From Adonisia turfae CCMR0081 (GTDB lineage: Bacteria; Cyanobacteriota; Cyanobacteriia; Phormidesmidales; Phormidesmidaceae), in contig NZ_QXHD01000004.1 of the NCBI RefSeq assembly GCF_011009555.1, positions 1,454,047 to 1,518,046 on the forward strand: a stretch of 64,000 nt of DNA, given 5' to 3'. The position numbers and the translations under genes are program-made. Shown piece after piece: positions 36,907 to 44,068 of the stretch (positions within the stretch are counted from its first letter, which is position 1; each line of letters begins with the position of its first letter). Below the pieces are notes generated by a model. It did not search any database and was not told the DNA's origin. It was given only the letters and a program-made list of their open reading frames with translations.

Positions 36907-37136
36907 AGCTTCCTCTACAAATTGGAGACAGTGTAATCCTTACATTAGACGAGCTTCAAGGGGTAGGTCCCAAAATTTAACACTTTTACGGATAATATAT
37001 GTATATGTATTCTTTTTTAGCCGCTTGCACCAGTTTTTACTGTGTTCAAAGGTTAACTATACTGAATTTTTCAGTCGCGACACACACAGATATTACCTTT
37101 TATTGAAAATGCTTTAATGTTCTGCAATAAAAACCC

Positions 37137-37787
37137 TTAAATCAAGCCATACAAAGTTTTGAACCAGGTTACAAACCTCTGGGCATTAGGATGATTGGGA
37201 TGCAAAATGCGTTCCATAATTGCTTGATGTAGCTGTCTCCCTGGAGGATCCTGCCAAGCTAACCAGGTGTAGATATTAGCTTTATCGAGATGAGGATCTG
37301 TAAATACAGCACCTTTACCTTTAGCCTCGTTGGTTACTACCTGGGCAAACTGCCAGAGTGTTTCACTGTCTGTTGGAATCATATAAGTTAAGAAGGTTTC
37401 CAACATGCCGCGCATCCTGTTATCAGGCATTATCCAAATTCCAAACTTAATTCCACTAGAAGTAGTGTGGAGTAATCCATCTTCAGGTAAGACGTCTGGA
37501 ATATCAGGAATACTGGTTAAGCTTGCATTTCTAATACTTTGCCAACGTCCTATAGGATTATCATCAGCATCAATCATAATGCCGAGCGCCGAAAGCCCAG
37601 AGGCTTGTAGCTCTGTCGAGATTAAGTCTGGATCGACTAAATTTTGATAACCGTCATAATCACGAATAAAAACAACCGGTCTTGTCCGAGTTCCCCAATT
37701 CACACCATTGGCTTCGATTAGTTCTGGGATTACGAAACGATCTTGTTTTCCCTCGACAAGAAGAACGTTGGGGTAAATGTCAGCCAT
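37137..37787 (-). CDS. DUF3226 (TOPRIM-like) protein, partner of the AAA ATPase
   Basis: A 216-aa protein with a TOPRIM-like signature: LLVEGKQDRFVIPELIE (the catalytic Glu of 'vEGxxD') and LGIMIDADDNPIGRW (the DxD acid pair). The end, DKANIYTWLAWQDPPGRQLH, fits the DUF3226 family. In OLD-type and PARIS systems a TOPRIM nuclease (AriB or the OLD C-terminus) is controlled by an AAA ATPase. Here the ATPase gene is immediately upstream (3-nt gap), so the two form one operon. I infer a nuclease effector; target and trigger are unknown. Confidence 0.8.
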   Translation of the reverse strand: MADIYPNVLLVEGKQDRFVIPELIEANGVNWGTRTRPVVFIRDYDGYQNLVDPDLISTELQASGLSALGIMIDADDNPIGRWQSIRNASLTSIPDIPDVLPEDGLLHTTSSGIKFGIWIMPDNRMRGMLETFLTYMIPTDSETLWQFAQVVTNEAKGKGAVFTDPHLDKANIYTWLAWQDPPGRQLHQAIMERILHPNHPNAQRFVTWFKTLYGLI

Positions 37788-37790
37788 GCC

Positions 37791-38864
37791 CTATCGCACC
37801 TCAATTCCACGTTCAGCAGCGATTACAACTTGTCGTTCCGTAAATACAATACTCTTTGGCTTATCTTTCTCAATCCTCTGAATTGTAATTCCCTCTTCAA
37901 TCACGTTTTCGGAATTTGCCATTGCAGCAAGACTCGTCCAACAATCACTATTGTGAGTTGTGGCAAAAACTTGCACATTAAGCCTTTTAGCTGTTTTCCA
38001 TATTAATTTCCACATATCAGACATTGCACTAAAGTGGAATCCAGTATCAATTTCATCGACTAATAAAACACCATTCCTTGCATTAACAATAGCTAACGTA
38101 AGGCCAAGCATTCGCCATATTCCATCCCCCATACTACCAATCGGTATGCGTTGGTCTTCATTAGTGAGCCTGACAACAAACCCACTACGTGAATCACCAG
38201 GATATCTATACTTTTCAGAACCAACTGAAGCAATACGATTAATACTTGGCTCAATTATCTGGAGTACTTCTGTAACAAGCTCCTCCTCTGGAGTCAAAAC
38301 AACCTGATCAAATAACTCAACCATTTTCTCACTGGTCAAGGAGGAAGACGTTATAAATTGGGTTCTTGATCCTAATTTCTTTAAATCTTTGCGAACACGT
38401 CTTATGTAATCTAACGGCAAACCTTCTCTAGAGGATAAGGGCAGTTTAATGCTCTCATTTTCCTGTCCCAACCACTCAATAACTAATACAAGCTCTCGTA
38501 GATCTTCAAATAGACTCATTTGGCCTGAATTTTCTACAGATACCGTGACGCCTTCTTCATTGCTATGAGTATTGCTGAGTATTGAAAACTTGCTGCCTAC
38601 ATCAATTTCATGATTATGGAAAAGGTGACGAACATCTAGCTCACGATTACCGCCCCGTTCATCACTAAAAATATATTCACCACGACCGATCATTACTTCT
38701 CGCAATGATTCAAGATTAGATTGAGAATAAAGAAGCTGCACAGCCTCTAAGATAGAAGTTTTACCGCTATTATTAGTGCCAACGAGCAAGTTTAATTTGC
38801 CAAGCTGCTGAAGCTCAAATCTTCGAAAACAACGAAAATTTTCAATTCTCAGTGACCTCAGCAT
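37791..38864 (-). CDS. AAA family ATPase (OLD/RecF-like), putative defence module
   Basis: A 357-aa SMC/RecF-like ATPase: the opening LRSLRIENFRCFRRFELQQL, Walker A LLVGTNNSGKTSILEAV (residues ~27-41), a signature-like IGSMGDGIWRMLGLTLAI, Walker B GVLLVDEIDTGFHFSAM and a terminal FATTHNSDC with the switch His. This is the AAA_15/AAA_21 type seen in OLD, Gabija and PARIS-like ATPases. No nuclease domain follows in the same polypeptide; the TOPRIM partner is the next gene. It is divergent from a putative integron attC site and the bchE cassette. Confidence 0.85.
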   Translation of the reverse strand: MLRSLRIENFRCFRRFELQQLGKLNLLVGTNNSGKTSILEAVQLLYSQSNLESLREVMIGRGEYIFSDERGGNRELDVRHLFHNHEIDVGSKFSILSNTHSNEEGVTVSVENSGQMSLFEDLRELVLVIEWLGQENESIKLPLSSREGLPLDYIRRVRKDLKKLGSRTQFITSSSLTSEKMVELFDQVVLTPEEELVTEVLQIIEPSINRIASVGSEKYRYPGDSRSGFVVRLTNEDQRIPIGSMGDGIWRMLGLTLAIVNARNGVLLVDEIDTGFHFSAMSDMWKLIWKTAKRLNVQVFATTHNSDCWTSLAAMANSENVIEEGITIQRIEKDKPKSIVFTERQVVIAAERGIEVR

Positions 38865-38970
38865 GTTTGACAGTTTGTTGAAGTTATGGTATACACCTTC
38901 ATTATAAGGGACAACGTAGCTTCACAGTAGCGAATCTGAATAATGTCATAATGCTTTTGCACATCAAGAA

Positions 38971-39057
38971 GGCTAACACTAGGTTGGTGCGGCGGTGCAA
39001 GGGTTACTGATTTCGAGGCTAGGGTACTGACCGCCGCATAACTCTGCCGTTAGCTGC
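38971..39057 (+). mobile_element. Integron attC recombination site (attC1)
   Basis: All parts of a folded attC are present in order. R'' is GCTAAC (38972-38977), then a 5-nt spacer. L'' is GTTGGTGCGGCGGT (38983-38996), a 33-nt loop follows, and L' is ACCGCCGCATAAC (39030-39042). A 6-nt spacer (TCTGCC) then leads to R' GTTAGC (39049-39054). R''/R' and L''/L' are complementary, and L'' has the expected unpaired G. The 5/6 spacer asymmetry is characteristic of attC sites. The site ends 66 nt before bchE. No integrase gene is in the window. Confidence 0.75.
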
Positions 39058-39122
39058 ATCTGCTGCACTTTGCCGCCCGACCAATCGCTATGCTTTCGGG
39101 GTAGCCACAGTGCAGAGAGTTT

Positions 39123-40673
39123 ATGCGTATTCTCATCGTGAATCCACCGCACCCCGCCATTGGCAGTCGTATTCCACGGGAGCAACTGCCCCCTCTGGGA
39201 CTATTGTGTGTCGGTGGAGCATTATTGGACGCTGGTCATGACGTTACGTTGCTTGACGCTGAACTTGGCCCACTTTCTAATGATGAAATTGTTCAGCAAG
39301 TTGTTACTCACAGTCCACAGGTACTGCTTATTGGTCACTCAGGCTCAACCTCAGCCCACCCAATTGTTGTTGATCTTACTCTTCGCTTTCGGCAAGAGTT
39401 GCCCTCCCTCACGATTGTTTACGGTGGAGTCTTTCCCACATATCACTTCCACGACATACTCACCCAAGAATCTCAGATTGACGTGATTGTTCGAGGTGAG
39501 GGTGAAGCCACTGTTCCTAAGCTGATGGCGGCTATTGAAGAGGCGAATGATCTTGCTAACGTAGAAGGTATTGCCTTCCGTCGTAATAATCAGATCATTG
39601 AAACACTCCCTGCTCTTATGATCCAAGATCTTGATGCCTATCGCATCGGCTGGGAATTAGTCGACCTGAAGAACTATAGCTACTATGGCGGTAAGCAAGC
39701 TGTCGTTATACAGTTTTCCCGAGGCTGCCCACACCTATGTAACTACTGTGGACAGCGAGGCTTCTGGGCTCGTTGGCGACATCGTAACCCAAAGAAATTT
39801 GCAAAGGAAATTGCCTGGCTTCATCGAACCCATGGCGTAGAACTATTTAACTTGGCCGACGAAAACCCAACAGTAAACAAAGCCATCTGGCGTGAACTGT
39901 GTGAAGCTATTATTGCTGAAAATCTACAGATCAGTATTATCGGTTCAACCCGTGCAGACGATATTGTACGAGATGCGGATATCCTGCATTTGTACCGTCA
40001 GGCAGGCGTTGAGCGATTTCTCCTGGGTATGGAAAATACCGATGAAGTCACACTCAAGGCAATTCGTAAAGGCAGTAAAACTAGCACTGATCGTGAAGCC
40101 ATTCGTCTCCTTCGACAGCATGGCATTCTTTCTCTAGCTACATGGGTGACTGATTTTGAGGAGGTTACTGACTATGACTTTATTCGTTCGCTCAAACAGC
40201 TACTCTGGTACGATCCTGACCAACTTATGTCGTTATATGTTACACCCCATCGCTGGACTGGATATTATCGAATAGCTTCTGAGAGGCGAATTATCCAACC
40301 CGATCAACGTAAGTGGGACTATAAACATCAGGTATTAGAAACTCGCTACATGCCTCCCTGGCGTATCTTTCTGTGGGTGAAATTTATTGAAATAGTTCTG
40401 CAGGCTCGCCCTAAGGCGTTATGGAGATCATTTCTGCAGCCAGATCGAGCTGCACGGCATGGCATGAATTGGTTTACCCGCATGGGGCGACGGGTTATAG
40501 TCCATGAATTTTGGAACTTTCTATTTCACGACTCTCGCATAATAAATGGACCAACATTAAGAGAATTTTGGGGTGTGCCGCAAGACCATCAAGAAATTCC
40601 ACTACGCATGTCCTATCAGCCAATGAAGCATACAATGCCTATTGAGCAAGCAAGCTCTAAGGTCCGTTCTTGA
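39123..40673 (+). CDS. bchE: Mg-protoporphyrin IX monomethyl ester anaerobic oxidative cyclase
   Basis: BchE forms the isocyclic E ring of (bacterio)chlorophyll without oxygen. The 516-aa protein has an N-terminal B12-binding-type domain (MRILIVNPPHPAIGSR, then VLLIGHSGSTSAHPIVV and VRGEGEATVPKLM) and a radical SAM domain with the CxxxCxxC cluster motif in SRGCPHLCNYCGQRGFW, followed by FNLADENPTVNKAIWRELC and DIVRDADILHLYRQAGVERF. Much of the sequence matches purple-bacterial BchE as I remember it. The gene sits between two attC-like sites as a gene-cassette insert, suggesting acquisition by transfer. Many cyanobacteria rely on the aerobic AcsF cyclase instead. Confidence 0.85.
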   Translation: MRILIVNPPHPAIGSRIPREQLPPLGLLCVGGALLDAGHDVTLLDAELGPLSNDEIVQQVVTHSPQVLLIGHSGSTSAHPIVVDLTLRFRQELPSLTIVYGGVFPTYHFHDILTQESQIDVIVRGEGEATVPKLMAAIEEANDLANVEGIAFRRNNQIIETLPALMIQDLDAYRIGWELVDLKNYSYYGGKQAVVIQFSRGCPHLCNYCGQRGFWARWRHRNPKKFAKEIAWLHRTHGVELFNLADENPTVNKAIWRELCEAIIAENLQISIIGSTRADDIVRDADILHLYRQAGVERFLLGMENTDEVTLKAIRKGSKTSTDREAIRLLRQHGILSLATWVTDFEEVTDYDFIRSLKQLLWYDPDQLMSLYVTPHRWTGYYRIASERRIIQPDQRKWDYKHQVLETRYMPPWRIFLWVKFIEIVLQARPKALWRSFLQPDRAARHGMNWFTRMGRRVIVHEFWNFLFHDSRIINGPTLREFWGVPQDHQEIPLRMSYQPMKHTMPIEQASSKVRS

Positions 40674-41050
40674 ACACAACTCAACTAGTCTATTGATGAA
40701 CCTTTTGGGCTGAGTGCAGTGCAGGTATCCCAAATTGCAACAAGTCCCCAAACGTTGTCGCTCATAGCATCCAGTTGAGTTTTAATAACGACTGGTCAAA
40801 TCTCATCAGTTCCAACAAATCTCGGCGGTCGCTTGTCGCAATATCCCGATCGCCCGTAGCGTTAACGACAAGTGCACTCGGTGGGGGGCGGGGTCTGCCA
40901 CCTAGCTAAGGTTATGTTTTGTCAACGGTTGGTCATTGGCCAAGGCCCCATTCAATATCGGTGGATCGCTCAGGGTGAATAGCGTTGAGGGATCGGTAGA
41001 AGTCGGAAGTTCCAGCTGAAATCATGGCAGCCCCCGCCAGAGGTTTTGCC
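40674..41050. other. Non-coding stretch after bchE
   Basis: About 380 bases without a plausible gene between bchE and the second attC-like site. It contains short complementary segments (CTCAAC near 40679 and GTTGAG near 40773; CAAC/GTTG near 40730-40758) and a G-rich run near 40880. I see no promoter, terminator or repeat that I can defend. Confidence 0.4.
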
Positions 41051-41139
41051 CCCGAACATGGCGTTGATGCTGTCTGAGCGAAAATATCGGCTAAGCTTGA
41101 AAGGTGCTTCACAGCCGCACAACTCTGCCGTTATGCGGC
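41051..41139 (+). mobile_element. Second attC-like site (imperfect)
   Basis: The right half is clear: GCCGCACAAC (41114-41123), a 6-nt spacer TCTGCC, and GTTATGC (41130-41136); a 20-nt block is the same as in attC1 except for one base. The left half is weaker: GAAC ending at 41057, a 5-nt spacer, then GTTGATGC (41063-41070). The spacers again have the 5/6 form and the total length (86 nt) matches attC1. R'' does not match R' well. The next gene begins 4 nt after 41139. Confidence 0.5.
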
Positions 41140-41143
41140 AAGT

Positions 41144-42367
41144 ATGGCCATGATTGAAATTAAACATCCACAAGAGCAGGCGCGTTTACGCCGCCTTGCC
41201 CTGGCTGCACAAGGTTTGCTGCAAGCTCAACCCTATGGACGTGGTTTGGCAGGGGCACGTAAAGCCATTAACCACCTCGGTTATGTACAGATCGACACCA
41301 TATCGGTGGTAGAACGAGCACACCATCATGTTTTCCACTCTAGGGTGCCTGAGTTTAAGCCCTCCATGACCAATCAACTGTTGCTCAATGGAGACATTTT
41401 TGAATATTGGGCACATGCAGCAGCTTTTCTCCCCATCGCCGATTTTCGCTTCTCCTTACCCTACAAACACGCCATAAAAAGCGGCCAAACCCATTGGTAT
41501 AGAAACCGTGATACAAAGCTCATGGGTGAACTGTTGGCCCGCATACGTTCAGATGGCCCGCTACGCTCCCGAGATATAGAAACTAACACCCAAAAACGTG
41601 CAGGTTGGTGGGACTGGAAGCCTGCTAAAAAAGCACTCGAACAGTTGTATATGGAAGGCGACCTCATGGTCAGCGATCGCAAAGGTTTCCAGAAAACCTA
41701 TGACCTGACCGAGCGGGTGCTGCCATCTCACGTAAATTCACAAATGCCCAGCATGGAAGAATTTGCGACGCATATTGTCGATCAACAGTTGCGCTGCCAT
41801 GGGTTGGTTTCACTCAAAGGACTGACCTATCAGCGCCGCAATGCTGACCTACGCAAGGCTGTAAAAGCTTTGGTAAACACAAGGTTGGCAGAGCACACGT
41901 TAGAACAAGTACAAGTGAGCAGTGGCGAAGTATTTTTATTAGAAACAGGTGCCTTCGAACGCTCTCTTCCCCGATTGAACAACCGCATGTTGATTCTCTC
42001 GCCATTTGACAATAGTGTCATTCAGCGAGAACGGCTCAAAGCACTGTTTCAATATGATTACCGGTTAGAATGTTATGTCCCCGCAGCCAAACGTCAGTAT
42101 GGTTACTTTTGCCTGCCACTCCTTTACCGCGATGAATTTATTGGACGGATGGATTGTAAAGCCCATCGAAAAAACAGCCATTTAGAAATCAAATTACTCC
42201 ATTTGGAACAACATAATTTTGATGAAGATTTAGTCATTGCTGCATTTGTAGACGCCATCATACAATTCTGTCATTTTCAACAATGTGACTCCGTGGCTTT
42301 GACTAAAGCCCACCCAAAACATCTCACTCAATCCATAACAACGGCGCTAGACGGGGTCATCCCCTAA
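41144..42367 (+). CDS. YcaQ-type winged-helix DNA glycosylase family protein
   Basis: A 407-aa protein of the HTH_42/YcaQ (AlkX) family; characterised members unhook interstrand DNA crosslinks. Family blocks are AINHLGYVQIDTISVVERAHHHVFHSR, GDIFEYWAHAAAFLPIADFR (the HAA region holding catalytic residues in YcaQ-like enzymes), KRAGWWDWKPAKKALEQLYMEGDL, RMLILSPFDNSVIQRERLKALF and RQYGYFCLPLLYRDEFIGRMD. It starts 4 nt after the attC-like site at 41051-41139, as a first ORF of a gene cassette would. A convergent mug glycosylase follows 1 nt away. Confidence 0.88.
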   Translation: MAMIEIKHPQEQARLRRLALAAQGLLQAQPYGRGLAGARKAINHLGYVQIDTISVVERAHHHVFHSRVPEFKPSMTNQLLLNGDIFEYWAHAAAFLPIADFRFSLPYKHAIKSGQTHWYRNRDTKLMGELLARIRSDGPLRSRDIETNTQKRAGWWDWKPAKKALEQLYMEGDLMVSDRKGFQKTYDLTERVLPSHVNSQMPSMEEFATHIVDQQLRCHGLVSLKGLTYQRRNADLRKAVKALVNTRLAEHTLEQVQVSSGEVFLLETGAFERSLPRLNNRMLILSPFDNSVIQRERLKALFQYDYRLECYVPAAKRQYGYFCLPLLYRDEFIGRMDCKAHRKNSHLEIKLLHLEQHNFDEDLVIAAFVDAIIQFCHFQQCDSVALTKAHPKHLTQSITTALDGVIP

Positions 42368-43002: not shown

Positions 43003-43563
43003 TCATGCTTTTTTTGTAAGAATGGCATGCTGAAGTCGTATTTCAGCTAATCGTTCAGCGTGATCGCTGCGAGCCCCGATTGTAAATTCGCCCACTAGCG
43101 CGTAATAAACCATGCGAGCACGTACCATGGCCTCAAACGGTTCAAATCCAACTTCTAAAAATAAGTCTTTTGTATACTCCAAGCGTTGTTGATCCACTTC
43201 GACAAGAACGGTAGTAATTTTGGAATCACCCGTTGCCCAAGCCCGAATAGCATTCTCTACTCGACCATCATCCTGAACAGCTAACTCAAATAGGTAAAGC
43301 AGTTTTGTTGTTGCATCGCCCCCAATCGTTTCAACCTGTTCAATGATGCGACTGGTTTGACCATTGACCCATTCCTGCAAGATAGCTTCTAAAAACACGT
43401 CTCGATTTTTGAAGTGCCAGTAAAAGCTCCCTTTTGTTACCCCCATGCACTTGGCAAGGGGTTCAACGCGGACTGTCTCCACTCCGCTTTCTGCAAGTGT
43501 CTGGAGGCCTTGATTGATCCAATCTTGGCGAGTCAACTTGGACGATTTATTTTCCTTTTCCAT
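43003..43563 (-). CDS. TetR-family transcriptional regulator
   Basis: A 186-aa repressor. The N-terminal helix-turn-helix is visible: RQDWINQGLQTLAESGVETV, LAKCMGVTKGSFYWHFKNRD (family helix 3 with the GSFYWHFKNRD hallmark). The C-terminal ligand-binding half (VENAIRAWATGDSKITTVL, MVYYALVGEFTIGARSDH) is not diagnostic. It is divergent from the SnoaL-like gene and two near-palindromic operators lie in the shared gap, one over its own start codon, so it probably represses both itself and its neighbour. Confidence 0.92.
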   Translation of the reverse strand: MEKENKSSKLTRQDWINQGLQTLAESGVETVRVEPLAKCMGVTKGSFYWHFKNRDVFLEAILQEWVNGQTSRIIEQVETIGGDATTKLLYLFELAVQDDGRVENAIRAWATGDSKITTVLVEVDQQRLEYTKDLFLEVGFEPFEAMVRARMVYYALVGEFTIGARSDHAERLAEIRLQHAILTKKA

Positions 43564-43577
43564 ACGGTAGCGTATTG
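43560..43577. promoter_or_regulatory. TetR operator 1
   Basis: CCATACGGTAGCGTAT is an imperfect palindrome overlapping the start codon of the TetR gene. It matches the reverse complement of the second site, CCATACGGCAACGTATGG, at most positions. Confidence 0.65.
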
Positions 43578-43607
43578 ACGTTTTTTAGATACGACATTAA
43601 TCTATAT

Positions 43608-43625
43608 CCATACGTTGCCGTATGG
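43608..43625. promoter_or_regulatory. TetR operator 2
   Basis: CCATACGTTGCCGTATGG, an 18-nt near-perfect palindrome just upstream of the SnoaL-like gene. It covers the first of three possible ATGs, supporting a real start further downstream at 43637. Confidence 0.7.
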
Positions 43626-43636
43626 AAGTAATGAGC

Positions 43637-44068
43637 ATGACTACTTTAATTGAAAAAAATAAAGCGATCGCACTCCGCTTTGCCCAAGATGGATGGGGTA
43701 TCCAATCTGATTGGCGTGGGGTATGGGATGAGTTAATGAGTGCAGATGTTGTCTATCACTTCAATAGTGCAGCGGAGCCAATTGTCGGGTTGGACGCCAA
43801 TAAGGCATTTAACGAGATCCTTTTTCAAGGGTTCCCCGACATCTATCAACGTATGGGGGATATAGTCGCTGAAAATGACAAGGTTGTATACCGCACAACC
43901 ATTCAGGGAACCCATACAGGCAACTTTTTAGGCATGCCCCCAACAGGTAAGTCTGTCAAAGTGAATGATTTCACTTTGCTTCAGATTGCAGATGGCAAAA
44001 TTGTAGAGTGGTGGTACGAGTGCAATTTGTTAGAAGTTATGCAGCAGCTTGGTTTGGTTTCAGCTTAA
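43637..44068 (+). CDS. SnoaL-like (NTF2-fold) ester cyclase family protein
   Basis: A 143-aa NTF2-fold protein of the SnoaL-like/ester cyclase group: FAQDGWGIQSDWRGVWDELM, GLDANKAFNEILFQGFPDIYQRMGDIVAENDKV, RTTIQGTHTGNFLGMPPTGK and KVNDFTLLQIADGKIVEWWYE. Such proteins isomerise, hydrolyse or bind small molecules; the ligand is unknown. The ATG at 43637 is chosen because GGAAG lies 8 nt upstream, whereas the first ATG (43622) is inside operator 2. It is probably induced when the divergent TetR protein binds its ligand. Confidence 0.85.
   Translation: MTTLIEKNKAIALRFAQDGWGIQSDWRGVWDELMSADVVYHFNSAAEPIVGLDANKAFNEILFQGFPDIYQRMGDIVAENDKVVYRTTIQGTHTGNFLGMPPTGKSVKVNDFTLLQIADGKIVEWWYECNLLEVMQQLGLVSA

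Follow-up and report, generated by a model that had tools for sequence, protein, structure and literature searches.

A probable integron gene cassette carrying a BchE-related radical SAM gene in the chromosome of Adonisia turfae CCMR0081

The stretch of DNA analysed here (64 kb, denoted the window) contains an intact open reading frame on the plus strand (39123-40673) that encodes a BchE-like B12-binding radical SAM protein of 516 amino acids with a CX3CX2C motif. The gene lies in a 2.08-kb plus-strand segment (about 39050-41130), whose limits are set by homology breakpoints against the equivalent locus of Leptolyngbya sp. PCC 7375 (L031) and fall at the cores of two candidate recombination sites, attC 1 (38971-39055) and attC 2 (41051-41136), both on the plus strand. 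An extra segment of about 326 bp (about 40695-41020) separates the ORF from attC 2; it is absent from the PCC 7375 cassette, and no copy was found among the other loci compared.

Upstream lies a second cassette (37079-39049, left edge approximate), of which attC 1 forms the right end. It holds two adjacent minus-strand genes, encoding a DUF3226 protein (37137-37787; PADLOC PDC-M38B, E 1.4e-72) and an AAA_15 ATPase (37791-38864; PDC-M38A, E 4.5e-91). This adjacency is what the PADLOC definition of PDC-M38 requires, and we regard the two as a candidate phage-defence pair. At the left edge of the array (near 37075) neither an attI nor an attC was recognised. Downstream of attC 2, a gene for an AlkZ-like DNA glycosylase (41144-42367, plus strand) follows directly. 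Further along, a TetR regulator gene and a SnoaL-like gene are arranged divergently (43003-44068); a similar pair is found beside an attC at 5.42 Mb of contig C11 (L195 5784-7033).

AttC 1 begins with R'' (GGCTAAC, 38971-38977), a 5-nt spacer (ACTAG) and L'' (GTT(G)GTGCGGCGG, with one extrahelical G), and ends with L' (CCGCCGCATAAC), a 6-nt spacer (TCTGCC) and R' (GTTAGCT, 39049-39055). R'' and R' pair at 7/7 positions (G-T counted), so that paired R''/R' and L''/L' arms, an extrahelical base and an R' of the form GTTRRRY are all present. With a purpose-written attC scanner it obtained the top score in the window, 31.5, a value reached at a rate of 0.015 hits per 64 kb in 200 dinucleotide shuffles of the window. 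Integron integrase (IntI) uses the bottom strand of an attC. Folded as single-stranded DNA, the bottom strand of attC 1 has a z of -3.2 (1/200 shuffles equally good), the top strand a z of -1.4. With a covariance model whose 12 training sites all lie outside the window and PCC 7375, attC 1 was again the best match in the window, at 27.4 bits and E 0.001, the runner-up having E 3. The E-values of this model are rough, and there is a mild circularity, since some of its training sites had been found with an earlier model. An Rfam search gave no match, and blastn of attC 1 against the source genome returned only the site itself. The exact core pattern AACTCTGCCGTTA occurs at only two places in the genome, both in the window, and the two sites are therefore not copies of a genome-wide repeat. 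By its sequence, attC 1 is a near-textbook attC. A previous sequence-only reading had described an attC of correct R''-5-L''...L'-6-R' geometry in front of the gene, and the geometry, shuffles, fold and independent model all bear this out, with a signal clearly above background.

AttC 2 is a different matter. Its right half is good (AAC-TCTGCC-GTTATGC, sharing AAC-TCTGCC-GTTA with attC 1) and its R' core is canonical, but R'' (CCCGAAC) is decayed, and equally poor in PCC 7375. Its fold is no better than background (z -0.5), and a search of the window with the independent covariance model missed the site. Judged by its sequence alone attC 2 is weak and doubtful, and taken by itself its score is at background; yet homology with PCC 7375 breaks at its core, and the weaker attC that had been proposed 3' of the gene is therefore a probable recombination point.

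The comparison with PCC 7375 defines the cassette. This genome carries the same locus at 91-96% DNA identity. The bchE-like block is homologous from 39049 (GTTAGCT) to 41130-41133 (GTTA) of the window; to the left of 39049 the two sequences are unrelated back to about 37075, where homology returns. The left neighbour is the PDC-M38-like pair here, and in PCC 7375 an IS plus a pentapeptide-repeat gene that has an attC of its own (L031 5848-5935). On the right side, past GTTA at 41130, the AlkZ-like gene comes next in the window. In PCC 7375 the same gene begins, at CGTTATG, only after a methyltransferase gene (plus an IS) and a further attC (L031 10021-10107). All three breakpoints against L031 fall, within a few bases, at the integron crossover G^TTRRRY. 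The suggestion that the stretch between the recombination points is one cassette (ORF plus attC) is therefore upheld, and the possibility of identical flanks in all relatives is contradicted outright, as the flanking cassettes in PCC 7375 are different ones. Identity to PCC 7375 is 96% in the cassette and 95% in the flanks, so the common ancestor probably had the bchE-like cassette already, and it is the neighbours that have changed since.

The right junction is used in other loci as well. Six other loci of the family have homologous DNA that begins at 41127-41139, and upstream of this junction the sequence differs in each of them, being attC-like in several. Read from these sequences, the AlkZ-like gene was itself once an integron cassette, and this holds for several genomes of the family. 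In the window, no attC was recognised 3' of the gene. Cassette limits thus coincide with recombination cores in both comparisons, that with PCC 7375 and that with the loci sharing the AlkZ junction.

The source genome (8.66 Mb) encodes one intact IntI (C11:2698362-2699303), 1.2 Mb from the cassette. The gene is a full-length ORF of 322 aa whose product scores 478 bits with TIGR02249 (cut-off 265) and contains the stretch ALERKYPNAHSEWKWQFVFPS, which we take to be IntI-specific. A second copy (L017:7305-7988) is broken by a frameshift and an internal deletion, its pieces being 89-95% identical to the intact copy. The search for an integrase elsewhere in the genome, which the sequence-only reading had called for, was thus positive. 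A minus-strand attC beside a peroxiredoxin-like gene (L019:13385-13469) precedes the intact intI by about 0.9 kb, with hairpin-rich repeats between attC and intI; another is found about 2.8 kb from the broken copy (L017:4455-4540, minus strand).

A first covariance model, trained on sites that include those of the window (its E-values within the window are thus set by construction), gave 23 attC-like matches genome-wide at E up to 10, four of them its own training sites; a dozen reach E 0.02 or lower. Small arrays are formed by several of these matches; at C11:106-108 kb (L196) two ORFs alternate with three attC sites, all on one strand. A loose attC pattern was tried as a detector and proved useless (110 matches versus 246 in a reversed control). 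With the intact intI 1.2 Mb away and further attC-like sites, several of them in small arrays, the window on sequence grounds holds a short CALIN, that is, a cluster of attC sites without a local integrase. Across the source genome and its relatives, 33/39 genomes have attC-like matches at E up to 0.02 (E-values rough), with up to 62 per genome. Cyanobacterial genomes of other families (G449, G450, G122 and G448) have 14 to 62, which suggests large cassette pools in the class.

These data bear on the proposal that the attC-like sites are chance hairpins, with no integron involved and the differing flanks owed to other causes such as IS activity or hypervariability of the site. Such a proposal can point to the background score of attC 2 and to the IS elements in the PCC 7375 copy of the locus. 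However, all three junctions share the integron core, and the AlkZ junction recurs in further loci; attC 1 surpasses the shuffles and was found by an independent model; and the genome possesses intI and other attC arrays. We consider chance hairpins scarcely credible.

The identity of the cargo is a separate question. The window protein passes the NCBI equivalog model for BchE (TIGR02026) with 681 bits against a cut-off of 481, aligns over its full length with BchE/ChlE and has the B12-binding and radical SAM domains in the same order, with CX3CX2C. It would accordingly be possible to see in it a true oxygen-independent cyclase (ChlE), acquired as a cassette for making chlorophyll under anoxia, as had been proposed. 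Against this, its identity to 20 BchE/ChlE sequences is only about 33% (31-36%); these include the genome's own chlE product and proteins encoded next to bacteriochlorophyll genes (Thiodictyon, a Rhodobacteraceae plasmid). It is 56-62% identical to proteobacterial, myxococcal, planctomycete and chloroflexal proteins, with stand-alone relatives in the non-phototrophs Rhizobium, Lysobacter, Caulobacter and Myxococcota at 57-62%, and 81-98% identical to cyanobacterial relatives of its own type. A maximum-likelihood tree of 56 sequences splits the window type from the BchE/ChlE clade by a very long branch with 100/100 support. The window type reads NPPHxAIGSRIP where BchE/ChlE has QPNYHSGGAEIAGNWPP, and YCGQRGFW where BchE/ChlE has FCSQWKFW; it also has a 24-residue insertion. 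TIGR02026 itself also accepts, at 532-564 bits, proteins from Rhizobium johnstonii 3841, Lysobacter and Asticcacaulis.

The genomic surroundings point the same way. None of six photosynthesis-cluster marker proteins occurs in 82 loci of the window type (up to 6 kb of flank), and no gene partner of the family conserved across clades was found in its loci. A true chlE is located elsewhere in the source genome (C11:5542522-5544003), adjoining a heme oxygenase gene, and a check for acsF found two such genes. The phylogeny and these surroundings leave the identification of the gene as BchE, and with it a role in chlorophyll synthesis under anoxia, without support, and a true cyclase as cargo is very unlikely. 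Most likely the cassette encodes a stand-alone enzyme, a cobalamin-binding radical SAM protein from a BchE-related family widespread in non-phototrophs, and not a Mg-protoporphyrin cyclase. From what is typical of the superfamily, its chemistry would most likely be a methylation or an oxidative rearrangement of a non-chlorophyll substrate.

The gene is patchily distributed, being present in 4/63 genomes of the family and order, all of one genus. Among 386 cyanobacteria sampled, 20 gave a score; three of these have only the second type, that of the window protein, and the source genome has both. No attC was found at the copies in Hyella, Calothrix, the Allocoleopsis plasmid and those in the genus with 84-85% identity. 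Beyond PCC 7375, the single attC candidate at a cyanobacterial copy is in Pseudanabaena biceps (L054 7521-7606, 25.8 bits, E 0.0025), where it overlaps the 3' end of the gene. The Allocoleopsis franciscana PCC 7113 copy (plasmid pMIC7113.05, L111; 81% identical) lies near a tyrosine recombinase gene. We tentatively entertain the broader idea that a stand-alone B12-dependent radical SAM family, labelled BchE in many bacteria, spreads as cyanobacterial integron cassettes in a widespread, scattered system served by one IntI in trans, and rate it as possible rather than probable.

The breakpoints at the cores of both attC sites, together with the intact intI, the further attC arrays and the patchy distribution (4/63), argue that the bchE-like stretch is an integron gene cassette, part of a short CALIN in the chromosome, with a member of a BchE-related non-cyclase family as its cargo (probability roughly 0.88). 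IntI, either the intact enzyme or the former one now broken, would act in trans on the folded bottom strands of the attC sites, and would excise and insert cassettes at G^TTRRRY. The cassette gene is probably expressed from a promoter inside the cassette, the upstream genes being on the opposite strand; a promoter scan of the cassette found no site in the leader and no more sites than in shuffles.

A variant of this reading is a fossil CALIN, in which shuffling lies in the past, attC 2 and the attC 3' of AlkZ would have decayed, and the cassette is no longer excisable as a unit, attC 1 still being competent. The equally poor attC 2 R'' in both genomes fits such a history, as do the failure to find an attC after AlkZ and the broken second intI. 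On the other side stand the perfect R' core of attC 2, the intact intI that remains, and the different neighbours at the attC 2 core in two genomes that are about 95% identical. We would put the fossil variant slightly short of an even chance, and, attC 2 being decayed, the odds that the cassette is mobile today at about even.

The integron cassette, then, is confirmed and the chlorophyll function is not supported: the cargo is new and the element is of a known kind. Comparison of genomes at this locus gives evidence, precise to the recombination core, that cassettes have been exchanged at a site in a cyanobacterial chromosome remote from intI. It also points to attC cassettes as common in the source family. 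Since TIGR02026, a widely used NCBIfam model, extends the BchE label over a second enzyme family, counts of BchE need re-examination. A literature search of limited scope found no paper that treats both bchE and integrons.

Several known systems can be set beside these features. Both proteins of the upstream cassette match PDC-M38A and PDC-M38B over nearly their full length; unlike the PADLOC PDC-M38 system as defined, the pair sits in an integron cassette, reversed relative to attC 1, and its role in defence is putative only. The position of the genome's own chlE beside a heme oxygenase gene recalls how chlAII-ho2-hemN-bchE are arranged in Cyanothece sp. PCC 7425 (PMC4500134). The cassette protein differs from BchE/ChlE in its separate clade, insertion, motifs and occurrence in non-phototrophs. 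Cyanobacteria have previously been found to carry integrons and CALINs (PMC8618304, PMC9668308), and a Cyanobacteria attC model exists (PMC8352920). The array described here resembles these CALINs and sedentary chromosomal integrons in its attC geometry and G^TTRRRY crossover, in the small arrays away from intI and in single-gene cassettes with diverse cargo. It differs in that no intI lies beside the array, that short arrays are scattered over the chromosome, and that a B12 radical SAM enzyme of metabolic type is carried as cargo.
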